Assembly: GCA_964019135.1 (NCBI GenBank)
Contig: OZ025257.1
Span: 42,549,798 to 42,613,797, forward strand
DNA: 64,000 bases
Direction of reading: 5' to 3'
From: Arenicola marina
Taxonomy: Eukaryota > Annelida > Polychaeta > Arenicolidae
This document shows positions 2,557 to 63,686 of the stretch, piece after piece; within the stretch, counting starts at the first letter, position 1; every line of letters starts with the position of its first letter. The notes under the pieces were generated by a model that worked only from the letters and a program-made list of their open reading frames with translations, did no database searches and was not told where the DNA came from. The position numbers were made by a program, and so were the translations under genes.

Positions 2557-2703
2557 TTGGCACGTCGCTTGAGTATCTTCTGGGCTTCTGGGTAGTCGTT
2601 CATCGCTCCCTCGAAGTCCACCTTAGAGAGGATGAAGAGCTGCGAGAACCCCTTGGCGCGGACGTCCGCTGTCCGCCGGTTGCCCCCGGCCAGGGCCAGC
2701 AGG
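2557..2703 (-). CDS. CNGB: CNGB exon: CNBD phosphate-binding cassette and helices
   Basis: Forty-eight codons. [18 protein letters not shown] carries the conserved Arg-Thr pair of the cyclic-nucleotide pocket, and the frame continues [25 protein letters not shown] into the C-helix start. The acceptor GTGCTGCCAG at 2704 and the first 16 exon bases are reiterated in the adjacent array. A strong donor GTGAGT follows at 2556. An in-frame TGA lies two bases past it, so termination here is an alternative reading, but relatives continue further. Confidence 0.92.
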
Positions 2704-5700
2704 CTGGCAGCACAGACAGACAGCGTTAATAACAGGGGCGGCCAGGGCCAGCAGGCTGGCAGCACAGACAGACAGCGTTAATAACAGGGGCGGACAGGGC
2801 CAGCAGGCTGGCAGCACAGACAGACAGCGTTAATAACAGGGGCGGCCAGGGCCAGCAGGCTGGCAGCACAGACAGACAGCGTTAATAACAGGGGCGGACA
2901 GGGCCATCAGGCTGGCAGCACAGACAGACAGCGTTAATAACAGGGGCGGCCAGGGCCAGCAGGCTGGCAGCACAAACAGACAGCGTTAATAACAGGGGCG
3001 GCCAGGGCCAGCAAGCTGGCAGCACAGACAGACAGCGTTAACAACAGGGGTGGCCAGGGCCAGCAGGCTGGCAGCACAGACAGACAGCGTTAATAACAGG
3101 GGCGGCCAGGGCCGGCAGGCTGGCAACACAGACAGACAGCGTTAATAACAGGGGCGGCCAGGGCCAGCAGGCTGGCAACACAGACAGACAGCGTTAATAA
3201 CAGGGGCGGCCAGGGCCAGCAGGCTGGCAGCACAGACAGACAGCGTTAATAACAGGGGCGGCCAGGGCCGGCAGGCTGGCAACACAGACAGACAGCGTTA
3301 ATAACAGGGGCGGCCAGGGCCAGCAGGCTGGCAGCACAGACAGACAATGTTAATAACAGCGGCGGACAGGGCAAGCAGGCTGGCAGCAAAGACAGTCAGC
3401 GTTAATAACAGGGACGGCCAGGGCCGGCAGGCTGGCAGCACAGACAGACAGCGTTAATAACAGAGGCGGCCAGGGCCAGCAGGCTGGCAGCACAGACAGA
3501 CAGCGTTAATAACAGGGGCGGCCAGGGCCAGCAGGCTGGCAGCACAGACAGACAGCGTTAATAACAGGGGCGGCCAGGGCCAGCAGGCTGGCAACACAGA
3601 CAGACAGCGTTAATAACAGGGGCGGCCAGGGCCGGCAGGCTGGCAGCACAGACAGACAGCGTTAATAACAGGGGCGGCCAGGGCCGGCAGGCTGGCAACA
3701 CAGACAGACAGCGTTAATAACAGGGGCGGCCAGGGCCAGCAGGCTGGCAACACAGACAGACAGCGTTAATAACAGGGGCGGCCAGGGCCGGCAGGCTGGC
3801 AGCACAGACAGACAGCGTTAATAACAGGGGCGGCCAGGGCCGGCAGGCTGGCAGCACAGACAGACAGCGTTAATAACAGGGGCGGCCAGGGCCAGCAGGC
3901 TGGCAACACAGACAGACAGCGTTAATAACAGGGGCGGCCAGGGCCGGCAGGCTGGCAGCACAGACAGACAGCGTTAATAACAGGGGCGGCCAGGGCCAGC
4001 AGGCTAGCAGCACAGACAGACAGCGTTAATAACAGGGGCGGCCAGGGCCAGCAGGCTGGCAGCACAGACAAACAGCGTTAATAACAGGGGCGGACAGGGC
4101 CAGCAGGCTGGCAGCACAGACAGACAGCGTTAATAACAGGGGCGGCCAGGGCCAGCAGGCTGGCAGCACAGACAGACAGCGTTAATAACAGGGGCGGCCA
4201 GGGCCAGCAGGCTGGCAACACAGACAGATAGCGTTAATAACAGGGGCGGCCAGGGCCGGCAGGTGGGCAGAACAGACAGACAGCGTTAATAACAGGGGCG
4301 GCCAGGGCCAGCAGGCTGGCAACACAGACAGATAGCGTTAATAACAGGGGTGGCCAGGGCCAGCAGGCTGGCAGCACAGACAGACAGCGTTAATAACAGG
4401 GGTGACCAGGGCCAGCAGGCTGGCAGCACAGACAGACAGCGTTAATAACAGGGGCGGCCAGGGCCGGCAGGCTGGCAGCACAGACAGACAGCGTTAATAA
4501 CAGGGGCGGCCAGGGCCGGCAGGCTGGCAGCACAGACAGACAGCGTTAATAACAGGGGCGGCCAGGGCCAGCAGGCTGGCAGCACAGACAGACAGCGTTA
4601 ATAACAGGGGCGGCCAGGGCCAGCAGGCTGGCAGCACAGACAGACAGCGTTAATAACAGGGGCGGCCAGGGCCAGCAGGCTGGCAGCACAGACAGACAGC
4701 GTTAATAACAGGGGCGGCCAGGGCCAGCAGGCTGGCAGCACAGACAGACAGCGTTAATAACAGGGGCGGCCAGGGCCAGCAGGCTGGCAACACAGACAGA
4801 TAGCGTTAATAACAGGGGCGGCCAGGGCCAGCAGGCTGGCAGCACAGACAGACAGCGTTAATAACAGGGGTGGCCAGGGCCAGCAGGCTGGCAGCACAGA
4901 CAGATAGCGTTAATAACAGGGGCGGCCAGTGCCAGTAGGCTGGCAGCACAGACAGACAGCGTTAATAACAGGGGCGGCCAGGACCAGCAGGCTGGCAACA
5001 CAGACAGATAGCGTTAATAACAGGGGTGGCCAGGGCCAGCAGGCTGGCAGCACAGACAGATAGCGTTAATAACAGGGGTGGCCAGGGCCAGCAGGCTGGC
5101 AACACAGACAGACAGCGTTAATAACAGGGGTGACCACACCGCGTCAAAGGCTCTCTCCGGACAGTTAAACAACCGACCCTACTACAAATGGCAAAATTAG
5201 ACGCATATTCTGTAGAAACGAGAAAGAAGACATGATAAACCAAGCCTCATTATACGGAGTGACACACAGAGACAGGTGGTACTGACAACTAAACGAAGCC
5301 TCACTGTAGGGGGTGACACGCAGAGAGAGGTGGTACTGACAACTAAACGAAGCCTCACTGTAGGGGGTGACACGCAGAGAGAGGTGGTACTGACAACTAA
5401 ACGAAGCCTCACTGTAGGGGGTGACACGCAGAGAGAGGTGGTACTGACAAGCTAAACGAAGCCTCACTGTAGGGGGTGACACGCAGAGAGAGGTGGTACT
5501 GACAACTAAACGAAGCCTCACTGTAGGGGGTGACACGCAGAGAGAGGTGGTACTGACAACTAAACGAAGCCTCACTGTAGGGGGTGACACGCAGAGAGAG
5601 GTGGTACTGACAAGCTAAACGAAGCCTCACTGTAGGGGGTGACACGCAGAGAGAGGTGGTACTGACAACTAAACGAAGCCTCACTGTAGGGGGTGACACG

Positions 5701-8700
5701 CAGAGAGAGGTGGTACTGACAACTAAACGAAGCCTCACTGTAGGGGGTGACACGCAGAGAGAGGTGGTACTGACAAGCTAAACGAAGCCTCACTGTAGGG
5801 GGTGACACGCAGAGAGAGGTGGTACTGACAACTAAACGAAGCCTCACTGTAGGGGGTGACACGCAGAGAGAGGTGGTACTGACAACTAAACGAAGCCTCA
5901 CTGTAGGGGGTGACACGCAGAGAGAGGTGGTACTGACAACTAAACGAAGCCTCACTGTAGGGGGTGACACGCAGAGAGAGGTGGTACTGACAACTAAACG
6001 AAGCCTCACTGTAGGGGGTGACACACAGAGAGAGGTGGTACTGACAACTAAACGAAGCCTCACTGTAGGGGGTGACACGCAGAGAGAGGTGGTACTGACA
6101 ACTAAACGAAGCCTCACTGTAGGGGGTGACACGCAGAGAGAGGTGGTACTGACAACTAAACGAAGCCTCACTGTAGGGGGTGACACGCAGAGAGAGGTGG
6201 TACTGACAACTAAACGAAGCCTCACTGTAGGGGGTGACACGCAGAGAGAGGTGGTACTGACAACTAAACGAAGCCTCACTGTAGGGGGTGACACGCAGAG
6301 AGAGGTGGTACTGACAACTAAACGAAGCCTCACTGTAGGGGGTGACACGCAGAGAGAGGTGGTACTGACAACTAAACGAAGCCTCACTGTAGGGGGTGAC
6401 ACGCAGAGAGAGGTGGTACTGACAACTAAACGAAGCCTCACTGTAGGGGGTGACACGCAGAGAGAGGTGGTACTGACAAGCTAAACGAAGCCTCACTGTA
6501 GGGGGTGACACGCAGAGAGAGGTGGTACTGACAACTAAACGAAGCCTCACTGTAGGGGGTGACACGCAGAGAGAGGTGGTACTGACAACTAAACGAAGCC
6601 TCACTGTAGGGGGTGACACGCAGAGAGAGGTGGTACTGACAACTAAACGAAGCCTCACTGTAGGGGGTGACACGCAGAGAGAGGTGGTACCAAGCCTCAC
6701 TGTAGGGGGTGACACACAGAGAGAGGTGGTACGAAGCCTCACTGTAGGCGGTGACACGCAGAGAGAGGTGGTACGAAGCCTCACTGTAGGGGGTGACACG
6801 CAGAGAGAGGTGGTACTGACAACTAAACGAAGCCTCACTGTAGGGGGTGACACGCAGAGAGAGGTGGTACCAAGCCTCACTGTAGGGGGTGACACGCAGA
6901 GAGAGGTGGTACCAAGCCTCACTGTAGGGGGTGACACGCAGAGAGAGGTGGTACGAAGCCTCACTGTAGGCGGTGACACGCAGAGAGAGGTGGTACGAAG
7001 CCTCACTGTAGGGGGTGACACGCAGAGAGAGGTGGTACCAAGCCTCACTGTAGGGGGTGACACACAGAGAGAGGTGGTACGAAGCCTCACTGTAGGCGGT
7101 GACACGCAGAGAGAGGTGGTACGAAGCCTCACTGTAGGGGGTGACACGCAGAGAGAGGTGGTACTGACAACTAAACGAAGCCTCACTGTAGGGGGTGACA
7201 CGCAGAGAGAGGTGGTACCAAGCCTCACTGTAGGGGGTGACACGCAGAGAGAGGTGGTACCAAGCCTCACTGTAGGGGGTGACACGCAGAGAGAGGTGGT
7301 ACGAAGCCTCACTGTAGGCGGTGACACGCAGAGAGAGGTGGTACGAAGCCTCACTGTAGGGGGTGACACGCAGAGAGAGGTGGTACTGACAACTAAACGA
7401 AGCCTCACTGTAGGGGGTGACACGCAGAGAGAGGTGGTACGAAGCCTCACTGTAGGGGGTGACACGCAGAGAGAGGTGGTACCAAGCCTCACTGTAGGGG
7501 GTGACACGCAGAGAGAGGTGGTACCAAGCCTCACTGTAGGGGGTGACACGCAGAGAGAGGTGGTACTGACCTAATTTCGCCGAAGACGCTTCCTTCATAA
7601 AGTGTCGCAAAAACAACGCTGTTGTTTTCGCCACCTACGACCTCTACTTGACCTTGCATGACGATGTACATTTCCGTACCAACCTCGCCCTGTCATTTTC
7701 GAGAAAGACAAATGGAGAAACACTCATGAAGCAGGGCTACGTTGTACCACTTTAGATTATTTATTTAGTGATATAGTTAATATTTGATTATATTTGATTC
7801 GATGTCCCTTCTTGTTTAAGTACGGTATATACTATATAAATTACCTTATTTACTCCCCCACATGGATGCAATTGATGATTTATATATGTGAAGAATTCTT
7901 GTACAATTGCATTGGAATTACGACATTACCTTTCTGCATATGTAGTCCAGGGGCAAATATAGGGCAGGTTTCAGCTTGAGCACCAAATCGAACAACAGGT
8001 TTTTGTCACAATCCTGGAAGATACAATAAAACAGAACATGAGTAACCCACAGCGTGACATATGACGTCACTAGTATCGAATGACGTCACTAGTATTAAAT
8101 GACGTCACAACTATCGAATGACGTCACTACTCTCGAATGACGTCACCCCTATCGAATGACGTCACTCGCATCGCGTGATGTCACTCTTATCGAATGACGT
8201 CACTACTATCGAATGACGTCACTACTATCGAATGACGTCACTACTATCGAATGACGTCACTACTATCGAATGACGTCACTGGTATGGTGTGAAATGATGG
8301 AACACGACAAGGACCGGGGACAGATTCTGTCGTGCTATCCCAACGTGATTTCGAGAGGTAAGTTTGGTGAGGTGGCGGAGACTCGCCTGGAAGAGCTGCA
8401 CTTTGCTCAGGGTGTTGAAGTGGACGTGGATAGCCAGGTCAGCCTTCATCTTCTGCGGCAGAGCCTCCAGCAGCTCGTTCTCATCTGTAACCAATCACCG
8501 CGCGCCTCGTCTTAGCATCTAACAAGCCTTGGCTTTCAAACAGATGTACAAATAATAATACTCACAGGTCGTTAGGCGACATTAACACCAATCTTTAGCA
8601 GCCGCCATATACCATGTCCCATCGATACTCAAGGTGACAAGTCGCTAGAAGTTGATGGACATCAATATAAGACTTACGCCTTGCTAACTCGCGGCATTAC

Positions 8701-11700
8701 TGCATTCTTATTAGTGCTCGACAAGCTGTGCGATGCGAGAACTCTCTCCTGATTGGTCCACGCGTTAATTATTCATTTGTCTGAGCGGCGCGTTATAGTA
8801 TTATGGGTAACATTTTTTCATAAAAAAATATCACAATGGAAAGAAAGAAGCCTTGTGCGTGAGATACTCCTGGGGGTAATTTACTTCGTAGTTACCCCAA
8901 CTTCGTTTTCATATTGATAGTTTTATTCCGCACTTAGTAAATCGTTGCAGCGAGGCAAGTGAAGTGTCGACATTATTTCCAGTCATACTTGGCAGTGATC
9001 GTTGGCCAATCACCGCGCAAGCCCTTGTCGCTATAACAACCACGTTGACCAATCACCAGGCAAGCCCTTGTCGCTATAAGAACCACGTTGACCAATCACC
9101 ACGCAAGCCCTTGTCGCTATAACAACCACGTTGACCAATCACCAGGCAAGCCCTTGTCGCTATAAGAACCACGTTGACCAATCACCACGCAAGCCCTTGT
9201 CGCTATAACAACCACGTTGACCGTTCCCAAGCAGCCAGGGAGAGGCACTGTAAGTGTTTACTTACAGCCAGGGAGAGGCACGGTCAGAGTTTACTTACAG
9301 CCAGGGAGAGGCACGGTCAGAGTTTACTTACAGCCAGGGAGAGGCACGGTAAGTGTTTACTTACAGCCAGGGAGAGGCACGGTCAGAGTTTACTTACACC
9401 CAGGGAGAGGCACGGTAAGTGTTTACTTACAGCCAGGGAGAGGCACGGTCAGAGTTTACTTACACCCAGGGAGAGGCACGGTAAGTGTTTACTTACAGCC
9501 AGGGAGAGGCACGGTCAGAGTTTACTTACACCCAGGGAGAGGCACGGTAAGTGTTTACTTACAGCCAGGGAGAGGCACGGTCAGAGTTTACTTACACCCA
9601 GGGAGAGGCACGGTAAGTGTTTACTTACAGCCAGGGAGAGGCACGGTCAGAGTTTACTTACACCCAGGGAGAGGCACGGTAAGTGTTTACTTACAGCCAG
9701 GGAGAGGCACGGTCAGAGTTTACTTACACCCAGGGAGAGGCACGGTAAGTGTTTACTTACAGCCAGGGAGAGGCACGGTGAGTGTTTACTTACACTCAGG
9801 GAGAGGCACGGTAAGTGTTTACTTACACCCAGGGAGAGGCACGGTCAGTGTTTACTTACAGTCAGGGAGAGGCACGGTAAGTGTTTACTTACAGCCAGGG
9901 AGAGGCACGGTCAGTGTTTACTTACAGCCAGGAAGAGGCACGGTCAGTGTTTACTTACAGCCAGGGAGAGGCACGGTCAGAGTTTACTTACACCCAGGGA
10001 GAGGCACGGTGAGTGTTTACTTACAGCCAGGGAGAGGCACGGTCAGAGTTTACTTACAGCCAGGGAGAGGCACGGTGAGTGTTTACTTACAGCCAGGGAG
10101 AGGCACGGTGAGTGTTTACTTACAGCCAGGGAGAGGCACGGTAAGTGTTTACTTACAGCCAGGGTGAGGCACGGTAAGTGTTTACTTACAGCCAGGGAGA
10201 GGCACGGTGAGTGTTTACTTACAGCCAGGGAGAGGCACGGTGAGTGTTTACTTACAGCCAGGGAGAGGCACGGTGAGTGTTTACTTACAGCCAGGGAGAG
10301 GCACGGTGAGTGTTTACTTACAGCCAGGGAGAGGCACGGTGAGTGTTTACTTACAGCCAGGGAGAGGCACGGTGAGTGTTTACTTACAGCCAGGGAGAGG
10401 CACGGTAAGTGTTTACTTACACCCAGGGAGAGGCACGGTCAGTGTTTACTTACAGCCAGGGAGAGGCACGGTGAGTGTTTACTTATACACCCAGGGAGAG
10501 GCACGGTCAGTGTTTACTTACAGCCAGGGAGAGATACGGTCAGTGTTTACTTAAAACCAGGGAGAGGCACGGTCAGTGTTTACTTACTAATGGTCTTAGA
10601 ATGCTCCCAGTTGTAGTTGAACCAGGTGCGGACTCGAACCTGCAACTCCTTGGGCAGGTTAAGTGACTTCATGTAGTAGAGCGTCTGGTCCATAGTCTTG
10701 CGGTAGTGTTCCTGGGCCACTCCGGCCATCTGGAATATGTCCCGGATCTGCAAGACAAATCAGGATCGTCAATTCCAGAATCACTCTTTGGTCCATACAT
10801 GCAAAACGCCGCTTAAATTGATTTCGCCAAAAGACAACATATTTACATTCCATCGTGTCTGGATAAATAGTTCTTTCTCTCATATAAAGAAGGAACGAGC
10901 AGAAGATGGGTGAGACGCTCTGTCGAGTACAATAGACTTAGTGGTGAAGCCTAAGATGAATCACACTTTCTACTAATATGTAACCCGTACGATGATGAAA
11001 GGAAAAGTTATTTAATGCCGAAAAAGTATCTTTGATAAATTTCCTTCTTATTCCAATCAGGAGAAAATCGCATTGCTGTTACCGAACGTCCAAACAATTC
11101 GCAATACATCAAAACGATCTTTGTTAAGTGACGAAACATCTAATACCAGTAATTTGATGTTTAAATCTTGAAACTCAATTGCATGTATATTAATAACGAT
11201 GCATAATACAATAGTGAACCGATATATTCCAATGTTTTAAGCAAGTGACAGTGACTCGTAAGCTGCTCAGACTGGTGGGCATATATTACTCCACAGTTGA
11301 AGGTTACACGTTTAAAGGATTTTATATTTCTTGTCAAATGTCACTTGAATAAATTATTCTACTGCTAATAGAACAAGGCCATGTATTTCAGTTATTGTTT
11401 ACTAATGGCAAATGTGTATCCTAACAATTGACCAGTCTAATGTAATTGCATTAATAAGATACCATGTTGTATTAATGTAATATGCTACTAAGATTCTGTG
11501 TGCTATTTATATTGAATTAAGTTTATAAAGTGCAGATGCAAATATAACTGTTATTACGATGCTGCTGTACTTGTAACTATGTTAATAAGGTACTGCTGTA
11601 CTTGTAACTATGTTAATAAGGTACTGCTGTACTTGTAACTATGTTAATAAGGTACTGCTGTACTTGTAACTATGTTAATAAGGTACTGCTGTACTTGTAA

Positions 11701-14700
11701 CTATGTTAATAAGGTACTGCTGTACCTGTAACTATGTTAATAAGGTACTGCTGTACTTGTAACTATGTTAATAAGGTACTGCTGTACCTGTAACTATGTT
11801 AATAAGGTACTGTTGTACTTGTAACTATGTTAATAAGGTACTGTTGTACTTGTAACTATGTTAATAAGGTACTGTTGTACTTGTAACTATGTTAATAAGG
11901 TACTGTTGTACTTGTAACTATGTTAATGAGGTACTGTTGTACTTGTAACTATGTTAATAAGGTACTTCTGTACCTGTAACTATGTTAATAAGGTACTGTT
12001 GTACTTGTAACTATGTTAATAAGGTACTGTTGTACTTGTAACTATGTTAATAAGGTACTGTTGTACTTGTAACTATGTTAATAAGGTACTGCTGTACTTG
12101 TAACTATGTTAATAAGGTACTGCTGTACTTGTAACTATGTCAATAAGGTACTGTTGTACTTGTAACTATGTTAATAAGGTACTGTTGTACTTGTAACTAT
12201 GTTAATAAGGTACTGTTGTACTTGTAACTATGTTAATAAGGTACTGTTGTACCTGTAACTATGTTAATAAGGTACTGTTGTACTTGTAACTATGTTAATA
12301 AGGTACTGTTGTACCTGTAACTATGTTAATAAGGTACTGCTGTACTTGTAACTATGTTAATAAGGTACTGTTGTACCTGTAACTATGTTAATAAGGTACT
12401 GCTGTACTTGTAACTATGTTAATAAGGTACTGTTGTACCTGTAACTATGTTAATAAGGTACTGCTGTACTTGTAACTATGTTAATAAGGTACTGTTGTAC
12501 CTGTAACTATGTTAATAAGGTACTGCTGTACCTGTAACTATGTTAATAAGGTACTGTTGTACTTGTAACTATGTTAATAAGGTACTGTTGTACTTGTAAC
12601 TATGTTAATAAGGTACTGTTGTACTTGTAACTATGTTAATAAGGTACTGTTGTACCTGTAACTATGTTAATAAGGTACTGTTGTACTTGTACCTATGTTA
12701 ATAAGGTACTGTTGTACTTGTAACTATGTTACTAAGGTACTGTTGTACCTGTAACTATGTTAATAAGGTACTGCTGTACTTGTAACTATGTTAATAAGGT
12801 ACTGTTGTACCTGTAACTATGTTAATAAGGTACTACTGTACCTGTAACTATGTTAATAAGGTACTGCTGTACCTGTAACTATGTTAATGAGGTACTGTTG
12901 TACTTGTAACTATGTTAATAAGGTACTGCTGTACTTGTAACTATGTTAATAAGGTACTGTTGTACCTGTAACTATGTTAATAAGGTACTGCTGTACCTGT
13001 AACTATGTTAATAAGGTACTGTTGTACCTGTAACTATGTTAATGAGGTACTGTTGTACTTGTAACTATGTTAATAAGGTACTTCTGTACCTGTAACTATG
13101 TTAATGAGGTACTGTTGTACCTGTAACTATGTTAATAAGGTACTGTTGTACCTGTAACTATGTTGATGAGGTACTGTTTTACCTGTAACTATGTTAATAA
13201 GGTACTGCTGTACTTGTAACAATGTTAATAAGGTACTGCTGTACTTGTAACTATGTCAATAAGGTACTGTTGTACCTGTAACTATGTTAATAAGGTACTG
13301 TTGTACCTGTAACTATGTTGATAAGGTACTGTTGTATCTGTAACTATGTTAATAAGGTACTGTTGTACCTGTAACTATGTTGATGAGGTACTGTTTTACC
13401 TGTAACTATGTTAATAAGGTACTGTTGTACCTGTAACTATGTTAATAAGGTACTGTTGTACCTGTAACTATGTTAATAAGGTACTGCTGTACCTGTAACT
13501 TTAAAACGCCCCTTTCCTGACATATCATCAAAGAGATACACCCGCGGCACGCTACAATTTTTTGTGACAGCGATACGATTTGGCCACACACACACTCGGC
13601 ACGCTACACCTGTAACTATGTTAATGAGGTACTGCTGTACCTGTAACTATATTAATAAGGTACTGCTGTACCTGTAACTATGTTAATAAGGTACAGATGT
13701 ACATATAACTATGTTAATAAGGTACTGATGTAACTGTAACTATGTTAATAAGGTACTGATGTACCTGTAACTATGTTAATAAGGTACTGTTGTACCTGTA
13801 ACTATGTTAATAAGGTACTGATGTACATGTAATGATGTTAATAGGGTATTAAGCAGGTTATGACCTGTCCAATGAGCATGGCGAAGACGAAGACCCCAGA
13901 CAGCCAGTAGACCGTCATGAAGGAATACTCCAGGGTGTTCTCCGGGGTCGGGTTGTTGCCGATAGAGGTCGCGGTCTTCGTTGCCAGGTACATACAACGA
14001 ATGTAACTGAGGAAGTGGGCCCACAATGTATAATTAGAAATAACGACAAATCGATTTCAAATATTTGAATATGTCATTTAAACAAGATAAACAAGATACG
14101 TTTTTTTTTATAATTTACAATTGAATTTATAATTAGAAATAACCGACAAATATTTAGATTTAAAATATTTAATATCTCATTTAAACGAGATAAACTTTTT
14201 TTTAATAATTCACAATTGAATGTTTAATTTTGAACTTTGAAAGTTAGGATACTTATTTGTTTATATTTTCATGACAATATTTAGAGTTTAAATATATTTT
14301 AAAATCTGCAAGATTTAAACTTAAAATATCCTAAAATCTGTAATATTAAAATTTTAAATATCCTAAAATCATTAATATTAAAATTTAAAATATTATATCT
14401 GTAATATTTTTATGTAGTTAATATCTAATACTGCGAGTTACTCACGCGATTCCCTCTCCGTTGTACACCCAGTCGTTCTTGCGGAGTCCCTCGTAGGCCG
14501 ACATGGCGTAGTACCCACAGGCCTCCAGGTGAATCAGGTAGATCATGTACGTCAGAGTCCTCATCACCCTACAACCAGCCGGCCACGAGTCGGGATTCAT
14601 ACTTAAAGTTACTTATCGAGCTCTTTCCCGCCAAAAATAGAGGTCAAAATGCAAATAAGAATCAGTCTTTGAATCATCCCAAATTTCTGTTGTCCATATT

Positions 14701-17700: not shown

Positions 17701-20700
17701 GCCTACAGTGAAAGAGAACGACATAACACCAGCCTTGGTTTGCATGAACAGTAGGCCTAATAACTTACAGCAAGTAATGAACATATGTCTGTGCATCTAT
17801 AGGTCAGTCACTTCGTACATTACAGCAGCCTATACAATAAATAGAATATATTTATATATAATATACAAATTATATATACGCATCTTCTATGAGAATGAGG
17901 ATGCCTTACAGGAAATGACTTTAGTAATACAGTTCCATAATAATCTATATGTATATATGTATATATATGATGGATGACGAGCTACCGTCGCGGCGCGGCC
18001 CTCAGCTCACCTCAAACAGTCCGTTCTTGATAAACTTGAGTCGTGACTTGACGAGCAGAATGTCCACCAAGTAGATGAAGTCGCACGTGTAGTCGGCTAG
18101 CCACCAGTACACCCGGTTCTCGTCCGTCTCGTAACCTTCGTAATAATGCTTCACCAACAGCGTCTCCACGTGCGTCTCATTGGTGCAAGTGATCGCTGAC
18201 GTCACCTCCGGACCGGAAGTGACGTTGTCGCTGCGGCACACGGTGATGTTTTGCTCCTGCGCCACCTCCAACGGGTGGAAGTACGGCGCGCTGTAAAAGG
18301 CGGCTCGAAGCAAGATGGCAGCGGCGTTGTAGATGAAGGCCATGGTGACCAGGAACAGCCAGATGATGTAGAACGTACCTGGGCAGTGACGTACCATCAA
18401 ATTACAAGTTCAGTTAATGGAGCGAAAATCATTGCTGTTAACATTGACACTGGAAGAAAGAAGACTAAGACGAAAAAGACCTCGACAAAAATGATGATAA
18501 ATTCGAAGAAGTCTATTCAGTTAATCAAATCACTGGAAGAAACATCATCTTCGTGCTGTTACCAGTTATTATGCAGTTGACCATCACATGGATTACTCCA
18601 CATCTTCACAAACAGAATCATATATCCGTGGAACCTGAACTGAGAGGGTGCCTTTGTGCTATATCGTTGCGACACTTTTCAAAGCGTAAAAAATTAAGTC
18701 TAATTGCCAATAAAAATACGTTTAAACTAAAACTTAAAAATAATACATAGATAACCCAAATACACGAGGTTTCACCGCTGAATGACTTGGACCGCTGTGA
18801 ACTCTCGCGCAGTTCAAGGCCGTAATTCCAAGATGGCACCGGGGTCACTCACCTGTCGGGTCCACTGTGGTGGGCAGCCGTACCCTGTTCAGGAAGCCGG
18901 GGACCTTGACCTTGCAGCGTCCATATCCGATGTAGCGCTCCTCCTTGTAGTCCGGCTCGGCGCCGCTGGCCCTGGACGCCATCGGGATGAAGGAATCGAG
19001 GCGGTGCTGGCGCGCCGGGGGCTCCAGCTCCATACCGGACACCGCCGAGAAAGCTGCCGGTAATGACGTCATTACGGCGGTAAGCAATCATCCGAGTTCG
19101 TTCTTTTTAATATTTTTACTTTTTAATGGCTTTAATTAATAACGGAAATTAGAACCGTATCTCCTAATATGTATTTCAACGCCCTTGTAGTTGTCCTAAC
19201 GTGTATCTGTCATTTTGATAAAGAGTATTGCAATACTTATAGACTTGCAGGGGGAGGTACGGTTTGGAGACTTGCAGAGGGAGGTACGGCTTGGAGACTT
19301 GCAGAGGGAGGTACGGTTTGGAGACTTGCAGAGGGAGGTACGGCTTAGAGACTTGCAGGGGGAGGTACAGTTTGGAGACTTGCAAGGGGAGGTACGGCTT
19401 AGAGACTTGCAGGGAGAGGTACAGTTTGGAGACTTGCAGGGGGAGGTACGGCTTGGAGACTTGCAGAGGGAGGTACGGCTTGGAGACTTGCAGAGGGAGG
19501 TACGGTTTGGAGACTTGCAGAGTGAGGTACGGCTTGGAGACTTGAGGGAAGTACGGTTTGGAGACTTGAAGGAGGTACGGTTTGGAGACTTGCAGAGGGA
19601 GGTACGGCTTGGAGACTTGCAGGGGGAGGTACGGTTTGGAGACTTGAGGGAGGTACGGTTTGGAGACTTGCAGAGTGAGGTACGGCTTGGAGACTTGAGG
19701 GAGGTACGGTTTGGAGACTTGAGGGAGGTACGGTTTGGGGACTTGCAGAGGGAGGTACGGCTTGGAGACTTGCAGAGGGAGGTACGGCTTGGAGACTTGA
19801 GGGAGGTACGGTTTGGAGACTTGCAGAGGGAGGTACGGCTCGGAGACTTGCAGGGGGAGGTACGGTTTGGAAACTTGCAGAGGGAGGTACGGCTTGGAGA
19901 CTTGCAGAGGGAGGTACGGCTTGGAGACTTGCAGAGGGAGGTACGGCTTGGAGACTTGAGGGAGGTACGGTTTGGAGACTTGCAGAGGGAGGTACGGCTT
20001 GGAGACATGCAGGGGGAGGTACGGTTTGGAAACTTGCAGAGGGAGGTACGGCTTGGAGACTTGCAGAGGGAGGTACGGCTTGGAGACTTGCATGGGGGAG
20101 GTACGGTTTGGAGACTTGCAGAGGGAGGTACGGCTTGGAGACTTGCAGGGCGAGGTACGGCTTGGAGACTTGCAGAGGGAGGTACGGCTTGGAGACTTGC
20201 AGAGGGAGGTACGGCTTGGCTGATGGAGGAGGGGGTGCCCGGATCACCTAGGGGCGGGGGGGGGGGCATCACGGGACTCACCGGATCTGACGTCCAGGCT
20301 GGTGGAGGATGGGGTTGCCGGGTCACCTAGTGGGGGGGGCACTCACCGGATCTGGCGTCCAGGCTGGTGGAGGGGGTGGGCGGATCACCTAGGGGGGGGG
20401 GCACTCACCGGATCTGGCGTCCAGGCTGGTGGAGGGGGTGGGCGGATCACCTAGTGGGGGGGGCACTCACCGGATCTGGCGTCCAGGCTGGTGGAGGGGG
20501 TGGGCGGATCACCTAGGGGGGGGGGCACTCACCGGATCTGGCGTCCAGGCTGGTGGAGGAGGGGGTGGGTGGGTCACCTAGGGGGGGGCGCACTCAGCGG
20601 ATCTGGCGTCCAGGCTGGTGGAGGAGGGGTTGGGCGGATCACCTAGGGGGGGGGGCACTCACCGGATCTGGCGTCCATGCTGGTGGAGGAGGGGGTGGGT

Positions 20701-23700
20701 GGGTCACCTAGGGGGGGGCACTCACCGGATCTGGCGTCCATGCTGGTGGAAGAGGGGATGGGTGGGTCACCTAGGGGGGGGGGGGCACTCAGCGGATCTG
20801 GCGTCCAGGCTGGTGGAGGAGGGGGTGGGCGGGTCACCTAGGGGGGGGGGCACTCACCGGATCTGGCGTCCATGCTGGTGGAAGAGGGGATGGGTGGGTC
20901 ACCTAGGGGGGGGGGGCACTCAGCGGGTCTGGCGTCCAGGCTGGTGGAGGAGGGGGTGGGCGGGTCACCTAGGGGGGAGGGCACTCACCGGATCTGGCGT
21001 CCAGGCTGGTGGAGGAGGGAGTGGGTGGGTCACCTAGGGGGGGGGGGGGGGGGGCACTCAGCGGATCTGGCGTCCAGGCTGGTGGAGGAGGGGGTGGGCG
21101 GGTTACCTAGGGGGGGGGGGGCACTCACCGGATCTGGCGTCCAGGCTGGTGGAGGAGGGGGTGGGCGGGTTACCTAGGGGGGGGGCACTCACCGGATCTG
21201 GCGTCCATGCTGGTGGAGGAGGGGGTGGGCGGGTTACCTAGGGGGGGGGGCACTCACCGGATCTGGCGTCCAGGCTGGTGGAGGAGGGGGTGGGCGGGTT
21301 ACCTAGGGGGGGGGGCACTCACCGGATCTGGCGTCCATGCTGGTGGAGGAGGGGGTGGGCGGGTTACCTAGGGGGGGGGGCACTCACCGGATCTGGCGTC
21401 CAGGCTGGTGGAGGAGGGGGTGGGTGGGTCACCTAGGGGGGGGCACTCACCGGATCTGGCGTCCATGCTGGTGGAGGAGGGGGTGGGCGGCTGGATGGCG
21501 CGCTCCTTGAAGCGCTCTGTCCGGCTGTTAAAGCGCTTCACCAGCTCCTTCATCTTCATGCTCATCTCACTGCTGACACCGGAAAAACTCTCGAAGGGAC
21601 CGGGCCTGGTGGGCGGGAGTGTTGGGGTGGGGAGGGGGGGGGACGATGGGTCAGTTTCAGTTTCGGCTACACATGCTATTGTCCAGCAGTAAATAGTATA
21701 ATACGTTCCCAATCTATTGACCCCTTAAGGGCAATAAGTATCACGCGTAGTTTCATATAATATTAGACAGTGAAAACCGAGGTCAGAACATACTGGAATC
21801 GTGATTAAGCCGATAAATTCTTCTTCCGGTTAATAACAATAAAGATATAATGGAAGACACGCAAATATACAATAATCAGGTGTCGCCACGTAGCAGCCTG
21901 TCCACTATGACGTCACCACCAGCCAATAAGGTGCCGCCACGTGGCAATCCACTATGACGTCACCACCAGCGAATCAGGCGCTGCCACGTGGCATCCTGTC
22001 CTCTATGACGTCACCACCAGTAAATCAGGCGCCGCCACGTGGCAATCCACTATGACGTCACCACCAGCGAATCAGGCGCCGCCACGTGGCAGCCTGTCCT
22101 CTATGACGTCACTCACGTTGGGGAGTCGTCCATGCTGTGGAAGGACCCGATGGAGTCCTCCCGGGTCAGCCGGACCAGCTCGCTCCAGTTGGACTGGATG
22201 CTCCGTCCCCCGGGGCTGCGGGGGGTCTGCAGAGGCGTCAGGTGGTCCACCCCCAGGTGCGAAACGTTGAGGGTGAGCGGCTTGGGGGGTCCCTTTCGGC
22301 CGCCCCCCGCCCGACCCTCTCCGAGCTCGGTCCCAAGGCTCTGGCGACGACGCACTGCAGGTGAAGATAAGATATCAGTCATGTAATAATTCACCTTTGA
22401 ACATAAGGGGTCTGGCCTAGCAAGCCTAAGGGCCAGCAATGGTCCTTATGGAGACCTGCAAGCCAGCCAGCCGGATCCTAGCCCACGGTGTGGCTGCACG
22501 CGCGGACACGACCAACGTATTCAGCAGCCAAGGAAATTAATTAATAATTGGTTCGTTGGACATCAACAGAGAGCCTTCGTTCTTCTATATGCCGCCCCCC
22601 CCCCCCCTCCAGCTCCCTACCCCATTCCTCCCGTTTATAACAATCAACCAAGTGAACGATTGTTAGAACCCAAAACGTCATAGTGACCAAAACGTTATAC
22701 CTTGCTAGAATGAAATATACAGTTAAAAGTATAATTTCAACCATCCCGGTTATCGCTCACACAACCCTGCGTGGCGTTTCTGAAGGAGACAGGGCGGGGC
22801 CACTCGGGGCTAAAGGATTGATTGATTGACAATTAGAGACCTCTTGCAGGCCGAACTTTGTGAATTAAGGCGCAGGAAAATAAGGAAATCTAAGGTTTCT
22901 TAGAATAGAAGGTTCCAAGGGATGGACCCGGAGGGAGCGGGGTGGGTGGGGGGGGGGGGGGGCGATACCCATATTCCATCGTTTATGAAAGCATTTAAAT
23001 ATATCTGAAACTGAAAAGTTACTGTCTCATATATTCATAGCCCCCGTCAACAGACACTGCGATCGAGGCACGATGTGAAACTGTACATTTGCTCCTAGAT
23101 GGCTCAGACCGTGTGGTCTGACGTTTTCGTCACTATGACGTTTTGGGCCCTAACAAACGATAACGATTTTGTTATCGTTAGATTACAGTTTGTGACGTAT
23201 TTTTGGATTCATCAGGATTGTAATATCTGTTTAAAAACCAGAGGTGCCGACCAACGACTAATGGACGTACCCACACCCCGACACTAAGCTCCGCCCACGC
23301 TTGAGTCCTTTTTCTTTAATCATGAGTGAATGAAAATGACAATCATAGCTGATGGTAGGTACAAGTGAGAAGTAGTCATCTCTGAAACTGACAGCAAAGT
23401 GACATGTTGCTTTGTTTGTCCGACTTGTTTGTCCGACATAACGCACATGGGAGACGTTTTTCACCACATGATTGGATAAAAGCAACAGTGACGTCATTGA
23501 GTGATTCCTGAATGACTTTCTGAATCGGGCCATTAACAGCTAGAAGCGCACGTTGTATTGCTAGTATATACCACACGGGTCTACGTAATAGAGGACAGTA
23601 CACAACACAGCATTATGTCTGTCACTGGCTCAGACACACGCGACATCTCCCCGAACACGACACGGCTGATGTTAACGCTCAATTAGGCATAACATTTGCG

Positions 23701-41839: not shown

Positions 41840-44800
41840 AGCTGATGAGCCTTGCTGTACACCATGTCAGGAGGTCCCCCCAGAGCCTTGCTGTACACCA
41901 TGTCAGAAGGTCCCCCCAGAGCTGATGAGTCTTGCAGCACATCATGTCAGGAGGTCCCCCCAGAGCTGATGAGTCTTGCTGTACACCATGTCAGGAGGTC
42001 CCCCCAGAGCTGATGAGTCTTGCTGTACACCATGTCAGGAGGTCCCCCCAGAGCTGATGAGCCTTGCTGTACACCATGTCAGGAGGTCCCCCCAGAGCCT
42101 TGCTGTACACCATGTCAGGAGGTCCCCCCAGAGCTGATGAGTCTTGCTGTACACCATGTCAGGAGGTCCCCCCAGAGCTGATGAGTCTTGCTGTACACCA
42201 TGTCAGGAGGTCCCCCCAGAGCTGATGAGCCTTGCTGTACACCATGTCAGGAGGTCCCCCCAGAGCCTTGCTGTACACCATGTCAGGAAGTCCCCCCAGA
42301 GCTGATGAGTCTTGCTGTACACCATGTCAGGAGGTCCCCCCAGAGCTGATGAGTCTTGCTGTACACCATGTCAGGAGGTCCCCCCAGAGCTGATGAGCCT
42401 TGCTGTACACCATGTCAGGAGGTCCCCCCAGAGCCTTGCTGTACACCATGTCAGGAAGTCCCCCCAGAGCTGATGAGCCTTGCTGTACACCATGTCAGGA
42501 GGTCCCCCCAGAGCTGATGAGCCTTGCTGTACATCATGTCAGGAGGTCCCCCCAGAGCTGATGAGTCTTGCTGTACACCATGTCAGGAGGTCCCCCCAGA
42601 GCTGATGAGTCTTGCTGTACACCATGTCAGGAGGTCCCCCCAGAGCTGATAAGTCCTGCTGTACACCATGTCAGGAGGTCCCCCCAGAGCTGATAAGTCC
42701 TGCTGTACACCATGTCAGGAGGTCCCCCCAGAGCCTTGCTGTACACCATGTCAGGAAGTCCCCCCAGAGCTGATGAGCCTTGCTGTACACCATGTCAGGA
42801 GGTCCCCCCAGAGCTGATGAGCCTTGCTGTACACCATGTCAGGAGGTCCCCCCAGAGCTGATGAGCCTTGCTGTACACCATGTCAGGAGGTCCCCCCAGA
42901 GCTGATGGGTCTTGCTGTACACCATGTCAGGAGGTCCCCCCAGAGCTGATGAGCCTTGCTGTACACCATGTCAGGAGGTCCCCCCAGAGCTGATGAGCCT
43001 TGCTGTACACCATGTCAGAAGGTCCCCCCAGAGCTGATGATCCTTGCTGTACACCATGTCAGTAGGTCCCCCCAGAGCTGATGAGCCTTGCTGTACACCA
43101 TGTCAGGAGGTCCCCCCAGAGCTGATGAGCCTTGCTGTACACCAAGTCAGGAGGTCCCCCCAGAGTTGATGAGTCCTGCTGTACACCATGTCAGGAGGTC
43201 CCCCCAGAGCTGATGAGCCTTGCTGTACACCATGTCAGGAGGTCCCCCCAGAGCTGATGAGCTTTGCTGTACACCATGTCAGGAGGTCCCCCCAGAGCTG
43301 ATGAGCCTTGCTGTACACCATGTCAGGAGGTCCCCCCAGAGCTGATGAGTCTTGCTGTACACCATGTCAGGAGGTCCCCCCAGAGCTGATGAGCCTTGCT
43401 GTACACCATGTCAGGAGGTCCCCCCAGAGCTGATGAGTCTTGCTGTACACCATGTCAGGAGGTCCCCCCAGAGCTGATGAGCCTTGCTGTACACCATGTC
43501 AGGAGGTCCCCCCAGAGCTGATGAGTCCTGCTGTACACCATGTCAGGAGGTCCCCCCAGAGCTGATGAGCCTTGCTGTACACCATGTCAGGAGGTCCCCC
43601 CAGAGCTGATGAGTCTTGCTGTACACCATGTCAGGAGGTCCCCCCAGAGCTGATGAGCCTTGCTGTACACCATGTCAGGAGGTCCCCCCAGAGCTGATGA
43701 GCCTTGCTGTACACCATGTCAGGAGGTCCCCCCAGAGCTGATGAGCCTTGCTGCACACCATGTCAGGAGGTCCCCCCAGAGCTGATGAGCCTTGCTGTAC
43801 ACCATGTCAGGAGGTCCCCCCAGAGCTGATGAGTCTTGCTGTACACCATGTCAGGAGGTCCCCCCAGAGCCTTGCTGTACACCATGTCAGGAGGTCCCCC
43901 CAGAGCTGATGAGCCTTGCTGTACGACATGTCAGGAGGTCCCCCCAGAGCTGATGAGCCTTGCTGTACACCATGTTAGGAGGTCCTCCCAGAGCTGATGA
44001 GTCTTGCTGTACACCATGTCAGGAGGTCCCCCCAGAGCCTTGCTGTACACCATGTCAGGAGGTCCCCCCAGAGCTGATGAGCCTTGCTGTACACCATGTC
44101 AGGAGGTCCCCCCAGAGCTGATGAGCCTTGCTGTACACCATGTCAGGAGGTCCCCCCAGAGCTGATGAGCCTTGCTGTACACCATGTCAGGAGGTCCCCC
44201 CAGAGCTGATGAGTCTTGCTGTACACCATGTCAGGAGGTCCCCCCAGAGCTGATGAGCCTTGCTGTACACCATGTCAGGAGGTCCCCCCAGAGCTGATGA
44301 GCCTTGCTGTACACTATGTCAGGAGGTCCCCCCAGAGCCTTGCTGTACACCATGTCACGAGGTCCCCCCAGAGCTGATGAGCCTTGCTGTACACCATGTC
44401 AGGAGGTCCCCCCAGAGCTGATGAGCCTTGCTGTACACCATGTCAGGAGGTCCCCCCAGAGCTGATGAGCCTTGCTGTACACCAAGTCAGGAGGTCCCCC
44501 CAGAGTTGATGAGTCCTGCTGTACACCATGTCAGGAGGTCCCCCCAGAGCTGATAAGTCCTGCTGTACACCATGTCAGGAGGTCCCCCCAGAGCTGATGA
44601 GCCTTGCTGTACACCATGTCAGGAGGTCCCCCCAGAGCTGATGAGCCTTGCTGTACACCATGTCAGGAGGTCCCCCCAGAGCTGATGAGCCTTGCTGTAC
44701 ACCATGTCAGGAGGTCCCCCCAGAGCTGATGAGCCTTGCTGTACACCATGTCAGGAGGTCCCCCCAGAGCTGATGAGTCTTGCTGTACACCATGTCAGGA

Positions 44801-45675
44801 GGTCCCCCCAGAGCTGATGAGCCTTGCTGTACACCATGTCAGGAGGTCCCCCCAGAGCTGATGAGTCCTGCTGTACACCATGTCAGGAGGTCCCCCCAGA
44901 GCTGATGAGCCTTGCTGTACACCATGTCAGGAGGTCCCCCCAGAGCTGATGAGCCTTGCTGTACACCATGTCAGGAGGTCCCCCCAGAGCTGATGAGCCT
45001 TGCTGTACACCATGTCAGGAGGTCCCCCCAGAGCTGATGAGTCTTGCTGTACACCATGTCAGGAGGTCCCCCCAGAGCTGATGAGCCTTGCTGTACACCA
45101 TGTCAGGAGGTCCCCCCAGAGCTGATGAGTCTTGCTGTACACCATGTCAGGAGGTCCCCCCAGAGCTGATGAGCCTTGCTGTACACCATGTCAGGAGGTC
45201 CCCCCAGAGCCTTGCTGTACACCATGTCAGGAGGTCCCCCCAGAGCTGATGAGCCTTGCTGTACACCATGTCAGGAGGTCCCCCCAGAGCTGATGAGCCT
45301 TGCTGTACACCATGTCAGGAGGTCCCCCCAGAGCTGATGAGCCTTGCTGTACACCATGTCAGGAGGTCCCCCCAGAGCTGATGAGCCTTGCTGTACACCA
45401 TGTCAGGAGGTCCCCCCAGAGCTGATGAGTCTTGCTGTACATCAAGTCAGGAGGTCCCCCCAGAGCTGATGAGTCTTGCTGTACACCATGTCAGGAGGTC
45501 CCCCCAGAGCTGATGAGCCTTGCTGTACACCATGTCAGGAGGTCCCCCCAGAGCTGATGAGCCTTGCTGTACACCATGTCAGGAGGTCCCCACAGAGCTG
45601 ATGAGTCTTGCTGTACACCATGTCAGGAGGTCCCCCCAGAGCTGATGAGCCTTGCTGTACACCATGTCAGGAGGT
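41840..45675. repeat. 44-bp minisatellite, ~88 copies (left part)
   Basis: The unit is CTTGCTGTACACCATGTCAG followed by GAGGTCCCCCCAGAGCTGATGAGC split over 44 bp. A 36-bp variant lacks CTGATGAG. The run is interrupted by the LINE at 45676 and resumes at 49887. Confidence 0.97.
45664..45675. repeat. Target-site duplication, left copy
   Basis: ATGTCAGGAGGT, part of the normal 44-bp unit, immediately before the first non-array base. The same twelve bases recur after the A-tail; the first A is ambiguous with the tail. Confidence 0.9.
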
Positions 45676-45997
45676 GCCGTACTGTATTAGTCAACTGATC
45701 AACTTAGCATCAATCACGGGAATTCGCCGGTTAAAAATGAGTGTCTTGGGATGCATACGCAACGCCAACTTTTAAAACTCGTGGTTTGAATGAAGGGAGA
45801 CGGGGGCGGTTTGGGTTTCTGGTGATGGTGCGTTATTTAAACATGATTTGCTGTATTCAAACACTTTGAATTGTGGTACAATCAGGGTACTCGTACACGC
45901 GGGTTGGGTGGTATTACATTTAATGACCAAAATACAGAGAGCGCGGTTCGTGAAAATGAACCACATCCCTGTCCTGAGTATTACTTAGTAGCACACC

Positions 45998-48900
45998 ATG
46001 ACGTTTCAGCTTGAAATAATCTCTATAAATGTGAGAGGGATGAGAGCGAAAATGAAGCGATTGTGTCTCTTTAGGCACTTCACCACCTTTTACAAAAATG
46101 CCATTGTATTCATTCAGGAAACACACAGCTGTGAAATAGTTGAAAGCATATGGAAAAATGAATGGGAAGGTGACATTGAATTTTGCCATTATAGCACGGA
46201 GAGTGAAGGAGTATGTATTCTTTCTCCAAAGGACATTGAATATAAACCAATTAACGTAGTCAAGGACACAGGTGGGCGCGCTCTTTTTTTGCAAGTGGTG
46301 CTTAATGATTGTGAGTTTGTACTGGGTAATGTATATGCTCCGACAAAGAATAATGTCAAAGAACAGTGCCAGTTTCTTGACAGGCTCTGGGACATAAGCC
46401 GAAATTTTGTGGGCAACTCCTTAATTATTGGGGGCGATTTCAATATTACCCTTGTCCCACTCGTAGATAAGAAAGGGGGGAAAATGGAATCTAGCTCTAA
46501 GTATCGAGATCATTTGCATGAGTTTATTGACGACCAAGAATTATCAGATATCTGGCGGGCTAAAAACCCTGGGGTTAAGCAGTACACCTGGTCTTCACCA
46601 GATGGTTCTATTAAAAGTAGACTTGATTTTTTTCTCGTATCAGAATTCATTTCTCCCCTTGTAAAGATGGTCCGTATAGAAGCCTCCATTAGATCTGATC
46701 ATAGTTTAGTTTACCTGCGACTCCAAGGTGATTCGTTTCAAGAACGAGGCCCTGGCTTTTGGAAATTTAACTCTGGCCTGCTGGAGGATGAATTCTACGT
46801 AAATGAAGTAAACGAGCTCTTTCAAAGTGCATTGCATAAGTATGTCGATATAGAAGATAAAGGCCTCAAATGGGATATCATCAAATGTGATGTAAGAAGC
46901 CATACAATACGGTTTTCAAAGCATAAATCTAAAGCTAAGAGAACTAGAGAAGCCGACTTATTAAGTAAACTAATGGAGTTGGAATCAACTTTGGGGGACG
47001 TTGATAATAACCTAAATTTAACTATTTCCCAAATACGAGCAGAATTGGAGGAGATATCCAAGGAGACAACAAAGGGGGCACTAGTTTTGTCTAAAGCCAA
47101 CTGGGCTGAACACGGAGAGAAATCCTCCAAATACTTCTTGGGTCTAGGAAAGAGAAATTATAAAAATAAATGCCTCATGAAACTAAACACACCCGATAGA
47201 GGTTTAACCACAAACTCTGCACATATTTTACAGGAAGTCCAATGCTTCTTTAAATCATTGTATGAATCTAAACACCCTAATCTATGCTCTAAAAAATATC
47301 GCGAGTTTAAGCAAATTTTTTTTGAAAACCCTGATGTCCCAAAACTTTCCAACGAAGCCAAGGAGTCTCTAGAAGGAAAGTTATTAGTCGGTGAATGTGC
47401 CAAAGCCCTTGAGGAGTGCAAGAACAACAAAAGCCCTGGCACTGACGGGCTGACTTATGAGTTCTACAAATTTTTCTGGCGATTTATTTCCAAGTTTGTA
47501 ACTGATAGCCTAAATTATGCATTCGAACAAAATAAACTCTCCACGGAGCAAAAACGAGGCTTAATCTCGCTTCTGCCTAAGAAATCAAAAGATCGTATAC
47601 TCATTAAAAACTGGAGACCACTCTCTCTATTAAATTCCGATTACAAGATCGGCGCTAAGGCAATAGCCAAACGGCTACAACCACATCTTCCCATCCTTGT
47701 CAACTCTGACCAAACCGGATACATAAAGGGTAGATATATTGGGGAAAATATTAGGCAAATTTTGGATATAATGAATATGACTAATGCTAAGAAGATCCCA
47801 GGCTTGCTCCTTCTGATCGACTTTGAGAAAGCTTTCGATTCTATTGAATGGAGTTATATGGACGAGGCACTGAAGGCCTTTAATTCCGGTCCGGATTTCC
47901 GCAGATGGGTTTCAACTTTCTATTGCGGCAGCGTCAGCAGCGTTCTTAATAACGGTTATTCTTCTGACTGGTTTCAATTAGAACGGAGCGTAAGGCAGGG
48001 TTGCCCGTTAGCGCCCTTCCTCTTTGTGTTAGTTATAGAACATCTAGCGGTCGCCATCAGGGGGGATAAGGGTATCAGAGGCATAAAATATCAGAATGTA
48101 TCATCTAAACTATCTCAGCTGGCAGACGATATGACATGCTTCCTCGCCGATGAGACATCAGGGCACAGGCTATTGAAGCTGTTGGACAAATTTGCTACCT
48201 TCTCAGGTCTGAAATGCAACTTAAACAAAACTGAGGCCATTTGGATAGGCTCAAATGCAGGACGATCGTCAGGTTCTTTACCTGTTAAATGGGCTTCCCA
48301 AAACTTTTCTACCCTTGGCATAAAATTTAGTCCAGATGAGATTGAAATGGCTTATTTAAACTTAGGGTCCAAATTAGAAAGCCTGAAGAAATGCCTTAAT
48401 TTGTGGAAAATGCGAAACTTAACTCTTATTGGTAGGATTCTCATTGTTAAAACGCTAGCCCTTTCACAACTTACATATATTGTCACAAATATACACATTC
48501 CTACGCCCTTGACTAAACAGATTCACAACCTAATTACCTCATTCATATGGAAAGACTCTAGGCCCAATGTTAAGTTGCAGGTCATTTCTCAACCAATTGA
48601 TAAGGGAGGTCTAAAGTTTCCACTGTTTGATAAGCAGGTGCAGTCTCCTCAGATTAGTTATGTGAAAAGAATATACAACGGTGAAAATAAAGTATGGAAG
48701 GTTTGTCTTCAGGCCTACTTTCCACATATCTCCATAGAAGACCTATTTCACACCAGATGTTGCTTGAATATGTCCGATATAAAGCAGTTACCGCTCTTTT
48801 ACAAGGATGTAATATCTTCATGGAGTGAACTTAGATCGAAATTTACCGTTGAACATGCAACCGATATATTGGAAGAATGGTTGTGGTTTAATCCACTCAT

Positions 48901-49886: not shown

Positions 49887-49898
49887 ATGTCAGGAGGT
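49887..49898. repeat. Target-site duplication, right copy
   Basis: ATGTCAGGAGGT follows the A-run directly and continues as the array unit (CCCCCCAGAG). Confidence 0.9.
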
Positions 49899-63658: not shown

Positions 63659-63686
63659 AAGGCATGCCCCCCCCCCTCCACCCACC

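Follow-up and report, generated by a model that had tools for sequence, protein, structure and literature searches.

A splice-junction minisatellite, probably of mirage type, in a CNGB1-like gene of the annelid Arenicola marina

In amphioxus, minisatellites termed mirages are described from Adh3, troponin C and the globin genes BflGb6 and BflGb9, with similar repeats in PGBD5; their units of 10 to ~160 bp span an exon–intron boundary on the donor or acceptor side, AG/GT signals are kept in many repeats, and the arrays are homogenised but differ in their number of copies (PMC3087553, PMC3902484). Amphioxus Adh3 data and globin RT-PCR suggested that mirages leave regular splicing undisturbed (PMC3087553). 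The human IFI6 (6-16) minisatellite contains multiple donors, of which two downstream ones are used (Turri 1995, cited in PMC4526556), and in human UBC dual-specific AGGT splice sites recur in frame at 228-nt intervals within the coding ubiquitin monomer repeats (PMC10809524). Intron gain by tandem duplication is the subject of the Rogers model and has been described for potato RdRp (PMC4974935). Minisatellite arrays also lie in an intron of the earthworm metallothionein gene, the only report found in the literature that bears on annelid intronic minisatellites at splice sites (PMC12783039). In the passages of these sources that treat such arrays, the reports proceed gene by gene and mostly concern amphioxus, with IFI6 as a related human case; in these sources the term mirage is applied to amphioxus only. 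A study of intronic minisatellites and splicing reportedly exists for C. elegans (PMC4039745).

Here we describe a junction-spanning array in a channel gene on the minus strand of a 64,000-nt window, the whole stretch of A. marina DNA that was analysed. Amphioxus was rejected as the source on the strength of mitochondrial contig C762, whose genes, named from their translations, run nad3-nad2-cox1-cox2-atp8-cox3, the order of annelids. As the sequence-only reading had proposed, the gene is a CNG channel, and by its homology it is of the beta type and CNGB1-like: the best PDB match is CNGB1 (E 2.6e-109), CNGB3 and alpha subunits rank behind, and PF00520 (transmembrane/pore region) and PF00027 (cNMP domain) are both present. 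The first four modelled exons (Ea–Ed) form one open frame across their splices, as do the last nine (Ef–En) with the parental junctions used. The Ee–Ef junction is unsettled, so that both its ends enter the junction counts below as guesses; zero arrays lie between these two exons. The array occupies the Eb end of the Eb–Ec intron, across which the parental frame is open:

22117..22354, minus strand: exon Ea, with its donor at 22116
21451..21605, minus strand: exon Eb, encoding the N-terminal helix, ending TCCG in phase 1
20276..21490, minus strand: minisatellite across the junction, as delimited by TRF, with 18 complete units (62-73 nt each)
20220..20247, minus strand: 19th unit, truncated to 28 nt of exon-tail copy and lacking a donor
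19241..20219, minus strand: 27-bp minisatellite, 37 copies, within the remainder of the same intron
18853..19053, minus strand: exon Ec, the next exon, frame-continuous with Eb

Each unit comprises a spacer (GT or CT, GAGTG, a C-run and TAG) and a copy of the exon tail, whose parent sequence is the last 40 nt of exon Eb. The copies of the 18 complete units start from 21432 down to 20326, and the truncated unit adjoins the 27-bp minisatellite starting at 20219. TRF scores of 1703 and 1935 mark tandem repeats beyond chance, and the full exon Eb has a single location in the one assembly searched. Much of the anatomy in the sequence-only reading is confirmed: 18 complete units, to which we add the truncated one, copy the exon 3′ end in lengths of 45 nt (15/18) or 42 nt (3/18), all multiples of three in phase 1 on both sides and none with a stop (0/18). 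GTGAGT donors follow 14 copies, each identical to the parental 9-mer, and the reported loss in four units corresponds to CTGAGT in units 6, 8, 10 and 13. The proposed C-run plus CCTAG acceptor is present in 16/18 units, the other two having ACTAG; every unit has TAGGT at its acceptor-like end. Gaps between units range from 18 to 28 nt, which corrects the earlier figure of about 18 nt. Unspliced read-through of an in-frame spacer does not hold in general: only three of the 18 spacers (before units 1, 9 and 12) are divisible by three, so that read-through is not generally in frame, and the second spacer contains a TAG stop. The array does lie, as suggested, in the linker that separates the N-terminal helix from S1; this linker is poorly conserved relative to CNGB1.

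Like the amphioxus mirages, each unit combines sequence from the exon and the intron side of a single junction (the donor and intron start together with 40 nt of exon tail), with splice signals in many but not all units (GTGAGT in 14/18, CTGAGT in 4/18, TAG in 18/18). Unlike them, the host is an annelid, such arrays occur within one genome in several of its genes, reaching 83 junction-spanning copies at the myosin locus L014, and the units of the CNGB1-like array and of one L022 array are bounded like whole small exons. The minisatellite offers several donors to one exon, as in IFI6; downstream donor use is reported there, whereas the donors of the CNGB1-like array are predicted from sequence only. 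The two also differ in copy number and unit length. With UBC the array shares a regular series of AGGT sites, one at every unit boundary, but its copies lie inside an intron, whole units (62-73 nt) do not preserve the reading frame, and by eye the donor context that follows TAG, GTGACC or GTAACC, is weak. As in the Rogers model and potato RdRp, the tandem duplication includes splice signals, but here there is no sign of a fixed new intron or exon. The earthworm metallothionein gene is likewise an annelid gene with intronic minisatellite arrays, although its arrays are not described as exon-end copies in the available portion of that report (PMC12783039).

We consider it probable, with good though incomplete confidence, that the 18-unit array is a mirage-type minisatellite born by tandem duplication across the splice junction. 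The founding duplication would have comprised the donor with ~40 nt of exon 3′ end before it and ~20 nt of intron after it, so that every unit copies these together with the C-run and TAG. The C-run ending in TAG would be an accident of the duplication breakpoint in a C-rich intron start. Amplification in place would then have given 18 units, and unequal exchange would later homogenise and resize the array. Such a duplication may have been tolerated because it leaves the parental exon end undamaged and places the copies within the intron. What was observed is the anatomy, the open parental frame, the lack of detectable selection on the copies and the recurrence at other CNGB1-like and at myosin junctions; the duplication history is a reconstruction. 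To judge from their sequence, the copies resemble by-products of an expanding repeat more than functional mini-exons, and we infer that normal splicing joins 21451 to 19053, with the array copies used at most to a minor extent.

Similar arrays lie at splice sites of other genes in this annelid genome, and this recurrence is the wider result. The CNGB1-like gene itself contains a second junction-spanning array, of 47 acceptor units, and three arrays that start 0-4 nt from donors, besides one that starts 16 nt away:

2687..5130, minus strand: array spanning the acceptor junction of exon 2703-2557, with a 52-bp unit in 47.0 copies
5236..7570, minus strand: array with 54-bp units that begins right at the exon 7689-7571 donor (GTCAGTACC)
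9232..10587, minus strand: 41.0 copies of a 33-bp unit, the first beginning right at the exon 10747-10588 donor
11562..13848, minus strand: 31-bp array starting 16 nt past the donor of exon 14006-13865
22112-21874, minus strand: array after exon Ea, starting 4 nt past the donor at 22116

The 52-bp unit contains TTATTAAC, a run of pyrimidines, CCAG and the initial ~16 nt of exon 2703-2557; use of the nearest four copies would leave the protein frameshifted or stopped. The 33-bp-unit array contains 41 matches to NTAAGTAAAC.

Arrays seeded at random in short introns must sometimes touch a junction, and the recurrence might thus be coincidence, with no link to splice sites; this would be compatible with a mirage origin of the 18-unit array. 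The CNGB1-like gene alone shows no excess, with 2 spanning arrays against a random expectation of 1.47 (p 0.44). In 104 array units, scanned without exon annotation, donor-like motifs likewise show no clear excess over shuffles (27 vs 27.9 at a cut-off of 6, 8 vs 3.4 at 9, and 2 vs 1.4 at 10), and the kinesin sample is weak, its lower rate amounting to one clear spanning array in 40 junctions. Against coincidence, 9 spanning and 6 abutting arrays were counted over a total of 130 junctions (90 arrays), compared with 4.84 expected for both (p 5e-5), under a null model, shared with the single-gene and myosin comparisons, in which each array is collapsed to one unit and only listed exons are known. 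The myosin sample, picked without regard to arrays and counted from 51 of 77 matches (the rest lie outside the sequence stretches analysed), alone has 7 spanning and 3 abutting arrays at 102 predicted junctions (78 arrays) against 2.98 expected (p 0.0007), or 2.06 if an array may cover only 20 nt of exon; unlisted myosin exons would shift both observed and expected counts. Myosin and kinesin splice sites were predicted with a weight matrix, and the L014 donor, which the matrix put on a later copy, was set by hand to the first copy before counting. L034 was rejected as a spanning array, its gap being ~10 nt by eye. Array edges, moreover, pile up at junctions: the 8-nt bin centred there holds 6 (0.75 per nt), whereas the 200 nt at distances of 101 to 300 hold 10 (0.05 per nt). 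Coincidence is unlikely, though not far-fetched.

A second possibility is that near-identical sites compete. Intact GTGAGT in 14/18 units and TAGGT in 18/18, with AGGT able to serve as either end of an intron, may be drawn on stochastically to give unregulated minor isoforms, by analogy with the two downstream repeat units used as donors in IFI6 (PMC4526556) and the stochastic splicing of tandem AGGT sites in UBC (PMC10809524). The only in-frame extension through a downstream donor, however, is that of unit 1 (+63 nt, 21 residues); donors from unit 2 onward introduce a stop codon, which would probably lead to degradation of the isoforms that use them. Nor are splice columns better conserved than others: in 12 arrays, the 24 columns of splice dinucleotides are as variable as the remaining positions (mean rank 0.49, Wilcoxon p 0.71), one acceptor having been scored one base off (rank 0.71 at the correct position). 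As an account of the array, such competition appears improbable.

The origin by duplication also bears on the properties that the sequence-only reading offered as signs of function, which are not supported as such and follow from copying one exon tail. Divisibility by three would be a founder property plus one putative 3-nt deletion, common to the neighbouring units 15-17 and located in a CTC-rich tract. Random substitutions create a stop in a 45-nt copy in only ~0.6% of cases, so none is expected among the 13 distinct substitutions (P of none 0.93). Replacement and synonymous changes stand at 7:6 against expected fractions of 0.68:0.31 (p = 0.19), which is not distinguishable from neutral at the low power that 13 substitutions afford. 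At that same power, better-than-neighbour retention of frame, freedom from stops or splice sites was not found in the copies. Unit lengths of arrays at other junctions fall into every class modulo three. Among the points that weigh against the minisatellite explanation, a coding role would likewise leave all 18 copies free of stops and with lengths divisible by three, and the 7:6 ratio tilts, non-significantly, to the synonymous side. A functional cassette, in which splicing would include non-adjacent units, each adding 14 or 15 residues in frame and so varying the length of the linker before S1, would draw on these copies (phase 1-1, 14/18 flanked by GT, with as many donors equal to the parental 9-mer), on the introns of ~83 nt left by skipping one unit and on a linker whose poor conservation means that inserts could be borne, but it is highly improbable given that all its supporting features follow from copying, frame, stops and splice dinucleotides carry no sign of selection, introns of 18-28 nt between adjacent units are too short, four donors are lost, and other arrays of the same kind do not keep frame.

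More speculatively, and in our view rather doubtfully, splice junctions in this annelid lineage may be preferred birthplaces of minisatellites, leaving many genes with near-identical splice sites that compete in their tens to hundreds; a few of these sites, CNGB1 array units among them, would be live at a low level, yielding stochastic in-frame linker variants and a nursery for new exons and introns. If the junction excess holds genome-wide, this annelid would provide a large natural experiment on the choice that the spliceosome makes among many near-identical sites, and on the long-standing idea that new exons and introns arise by tandem duplication across splice signals.

The channel gene was modelled from minus-strand frames as a partial gene of 14 exons. 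A single open frame crosses every junction within exons 1–4 and again within the last nine exons; the join of the fifth and sixth exons is not settled. The translation contains ion-transport and cNMP-binding domains, and its best structure match is CNGB1 (E 2.6e-109), with CNGB3 and the alpha subunits ranking behind. Because the alignment of its N-terminal half to CNGB1 extends from the helix preceding the array through S1, this comparison supports the position between N-terminal helix and S1 proposed in the sequence-only reading, and places the array intron in a linker of low conservation. Elsewhere in the gene, exon 8484–8387 (minus strand) appears to have a GC donor, CCAG/GCGAGT, at 8387.

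Exon 21605–21451 (minus strand) ends in TCCG/GTGAGT; behind it lie 18 complete units and a truncated one. A complete unit comprises a spacer (GTGAGTG or CTGAGTG, a mostly-C run and TAG), then a copy of the exon's end that measures 45 nt in 15 of them and 42 nt in the other three. The C-run ends in CCTAG in 16/18 units and ACTAG in 2/18, and the donor 3′ of the copy is GTGAGT in 14/18 and CTGAGT in units 6, 8, 10 and 13, counted from the exon. In the frame of the exon none of the 18 copies contains a stop, and both of their ends are in phase 1. The unit count and layout, the stop-free phase 1–1 copies of 45 or 42 nt and the four lost GT donors thus stand as first described. The spacing of about 18 nt and the "in-frame spacer" do not: the spacers before the 18 copies measure 18–28 nt, and since only three are divisible by three, the latter is generally wrong. 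Translation continued past the exon end would run through unit 1 and meet a TAG stop in the second spacer.

In the sequence-only reading each unit looks like an in-frame micro-exon, and use of the copies could give a length-variable linker. The copies carry 13 distinct substitutions relative to their consensus, of which 7 are replacement and 6 synonymous changes; the expected fractions are 0.68 and 0.31 (transition weight 2), and the replacement deficit has p = 0.19. The absence of stops is expected (P = 0.93 for none in 13), because 0.6% of possible changes create one. The sole length change is a 3-nt loss in a CTC-rich tract, common to adjacent units 15–17, which is treated here as a single event. 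In a comparison of 12 junction arrays, splice-signal columns (24 in total) were no less variable than others (mean rank 0.49, p = 0.71; one acceptor, recomputed, ranked 0.71), and unit lengths of these arrays include all three classes modulo 3. So few changes are also compatible with weak selection on the channel-array copies.

Further features of the window:
5130–2687, minus strand: 52-bp array, 47 copies, spanning the exon acceptor at 2703
From 10587, minus strand: 33-bp array, 41 copies, beginning exactly at a donor
From 7570, minus strand: 54-bp array, beginning exactly at a donor
From 4 nt beyond the donor at 22116, minus strand: 47-bp array, starting near that donor
63667–64000, minus strand: 72-bp unit, 4.7 copies, coding-looking stretch mostly ending GGGCAG/GTGGGT
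45992–49363, plus strand: 1123-aa open reading frame that encodes endonuclease and reverse transcriptase domains

The 52-bp unit combines TTATTAAC, a stretch of pyrimidines, CCAG and roughly 16 nt from the exon at 2703; using acceptor copies one to four units upstream would give a frameshift or stop in 4/4 cases examined. The array at 63667–64000 is probably a further junction-spanning array whose parent exon is cut by the window end. The 1123-aa frame is flanked by two blocks of one and the same minisatellite with 44-bp units (41883–45675 and 49887–50240) and is apparently a non-LTR retrotransposon inserted into that array.

The window belongs to a genome of 867 Mb, and the gene order on its mitochondrial contig is that of annelids. 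Further junction arrays were sought in a myosin and a kinesin sample of this genome. The myosin sample, which was chosen independently of arrays, consists of 20 stretches that contain myosin-head exons and total 171.5 kb, of which tandem arrays make up 38%; they include 51 of 77 myosin-head matches, with splice sites predicted.

Myosin arrays at predicted junctions, by stretch:
Spanning (seven): L014, L018, L021, L022 (two), L029 (two)
Abutting (three): L016, L017, L020

At L029:1–2980, one myosin exon is flanked by two spanning arrays, with 51-bp units (32.9 copies) on the acceptor side and 26/52-bp units on the donor side. One L022 array shares the layout of the channel array (C-run, ACAG, exon-tail copy, GTAC donor); it does not keep frame, because the copies are 12 nt long in five cases and 10 nt in one. 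A coding-looking array at L027:69–380 (minus strand, 24-bp units, 13.1 copies) has a donor inside the unit, GTCAAGTACAACATCAAG/GTGAGC. Separately, the myosin gene at L012/L013 (contig C4, 366500–386499) has four tandem exon versions at profile positions ~590–640 and four at ~110–154, and the 20 kb examined yielded a single short array. These sets look like the mutually exclusive exons reportedly present in fly Mhc.

For a null expectation, arrays were each reduced to a single unit and given random positions, and spanning and abutting cases were counted. In the myosin sample 10/78 arrays span or abut a junction versus 2.98 expected (p = 0.0007), or 2.06 expected if exon cover is limited to ≤20 nt. 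The channel gene, which was chosen for its array, gives 5/12 versus 1.87 (p = 0.026), with no excess of spanning arrays alone (2 versus 1.47, p = 0.44); the two sets together give 15/90 versus 4.84 (p = 5e-5). In the kinesin sample, drawn from 133 matches, each of 20 places contributed its best stop-free exon with 700-nt flanks, and 39/40 junctions were predictable. The junction effect is weaker here than in myosin, since the sample holds one clear spanning array (L040, which crosses a donor and covers ~54 nt of the exon's tail; 92-bp unit, 8.2 copies). In L046 a weak array of three copies sits 5 nt away from a poor donor, and arrays lie ~10–25 nt from a junction in L034 (by eye), L043 and L050. 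Repeat content is 13%, lower than in the myosin stretches. Five contigs outside the large numbered ones (C390, C504 and C536 for kinesin; C465 and C321 for cNMP) bear long matches with in-frame TAG/TAA; these may be pseudogenes or come from a contaminant or symbiont that has reassigned stop codons.

Array edges cluster at junctions, for which three explanations may be offered. Arrays may be born preferentially there, at C- or G-rich intron starts or transcription-linked breaks; unique intron sequence may have been lost down to a functional limit, bringing array edges to junctions; or junction arrays may be the survivors among duplications, those that leave splicing intact. The data do not favour any one of these three inferred explanations.

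The observed facts fit tandem duplications that would have crossed a splice junction and then been amplified in place. Such a duplication would leave the protein unharmed, because the parental splice site is kept and the duplicated copies become intron. Passages of two amphioxus reports (PMC3087553; PMC3902484) describe junction-spanning minisatellites of the same kind, termed mirages, suggest, on the basis of Adh3 data and RT-PCR of globins, that normal splicing persists despite them, and propose a part for them in new-intron creation. Passages on IFI6 (PMC4526556) and UBC (PMC10809524) indicate that repeat copies can be used in splicing. Within the channel array, only the unit-1 donor would extend the exon in frame, by 21 residues, because donors from unit 2 on bring in the stop, and inclusion of micro-exons would need non-adjacent units; both are possible as minor events.
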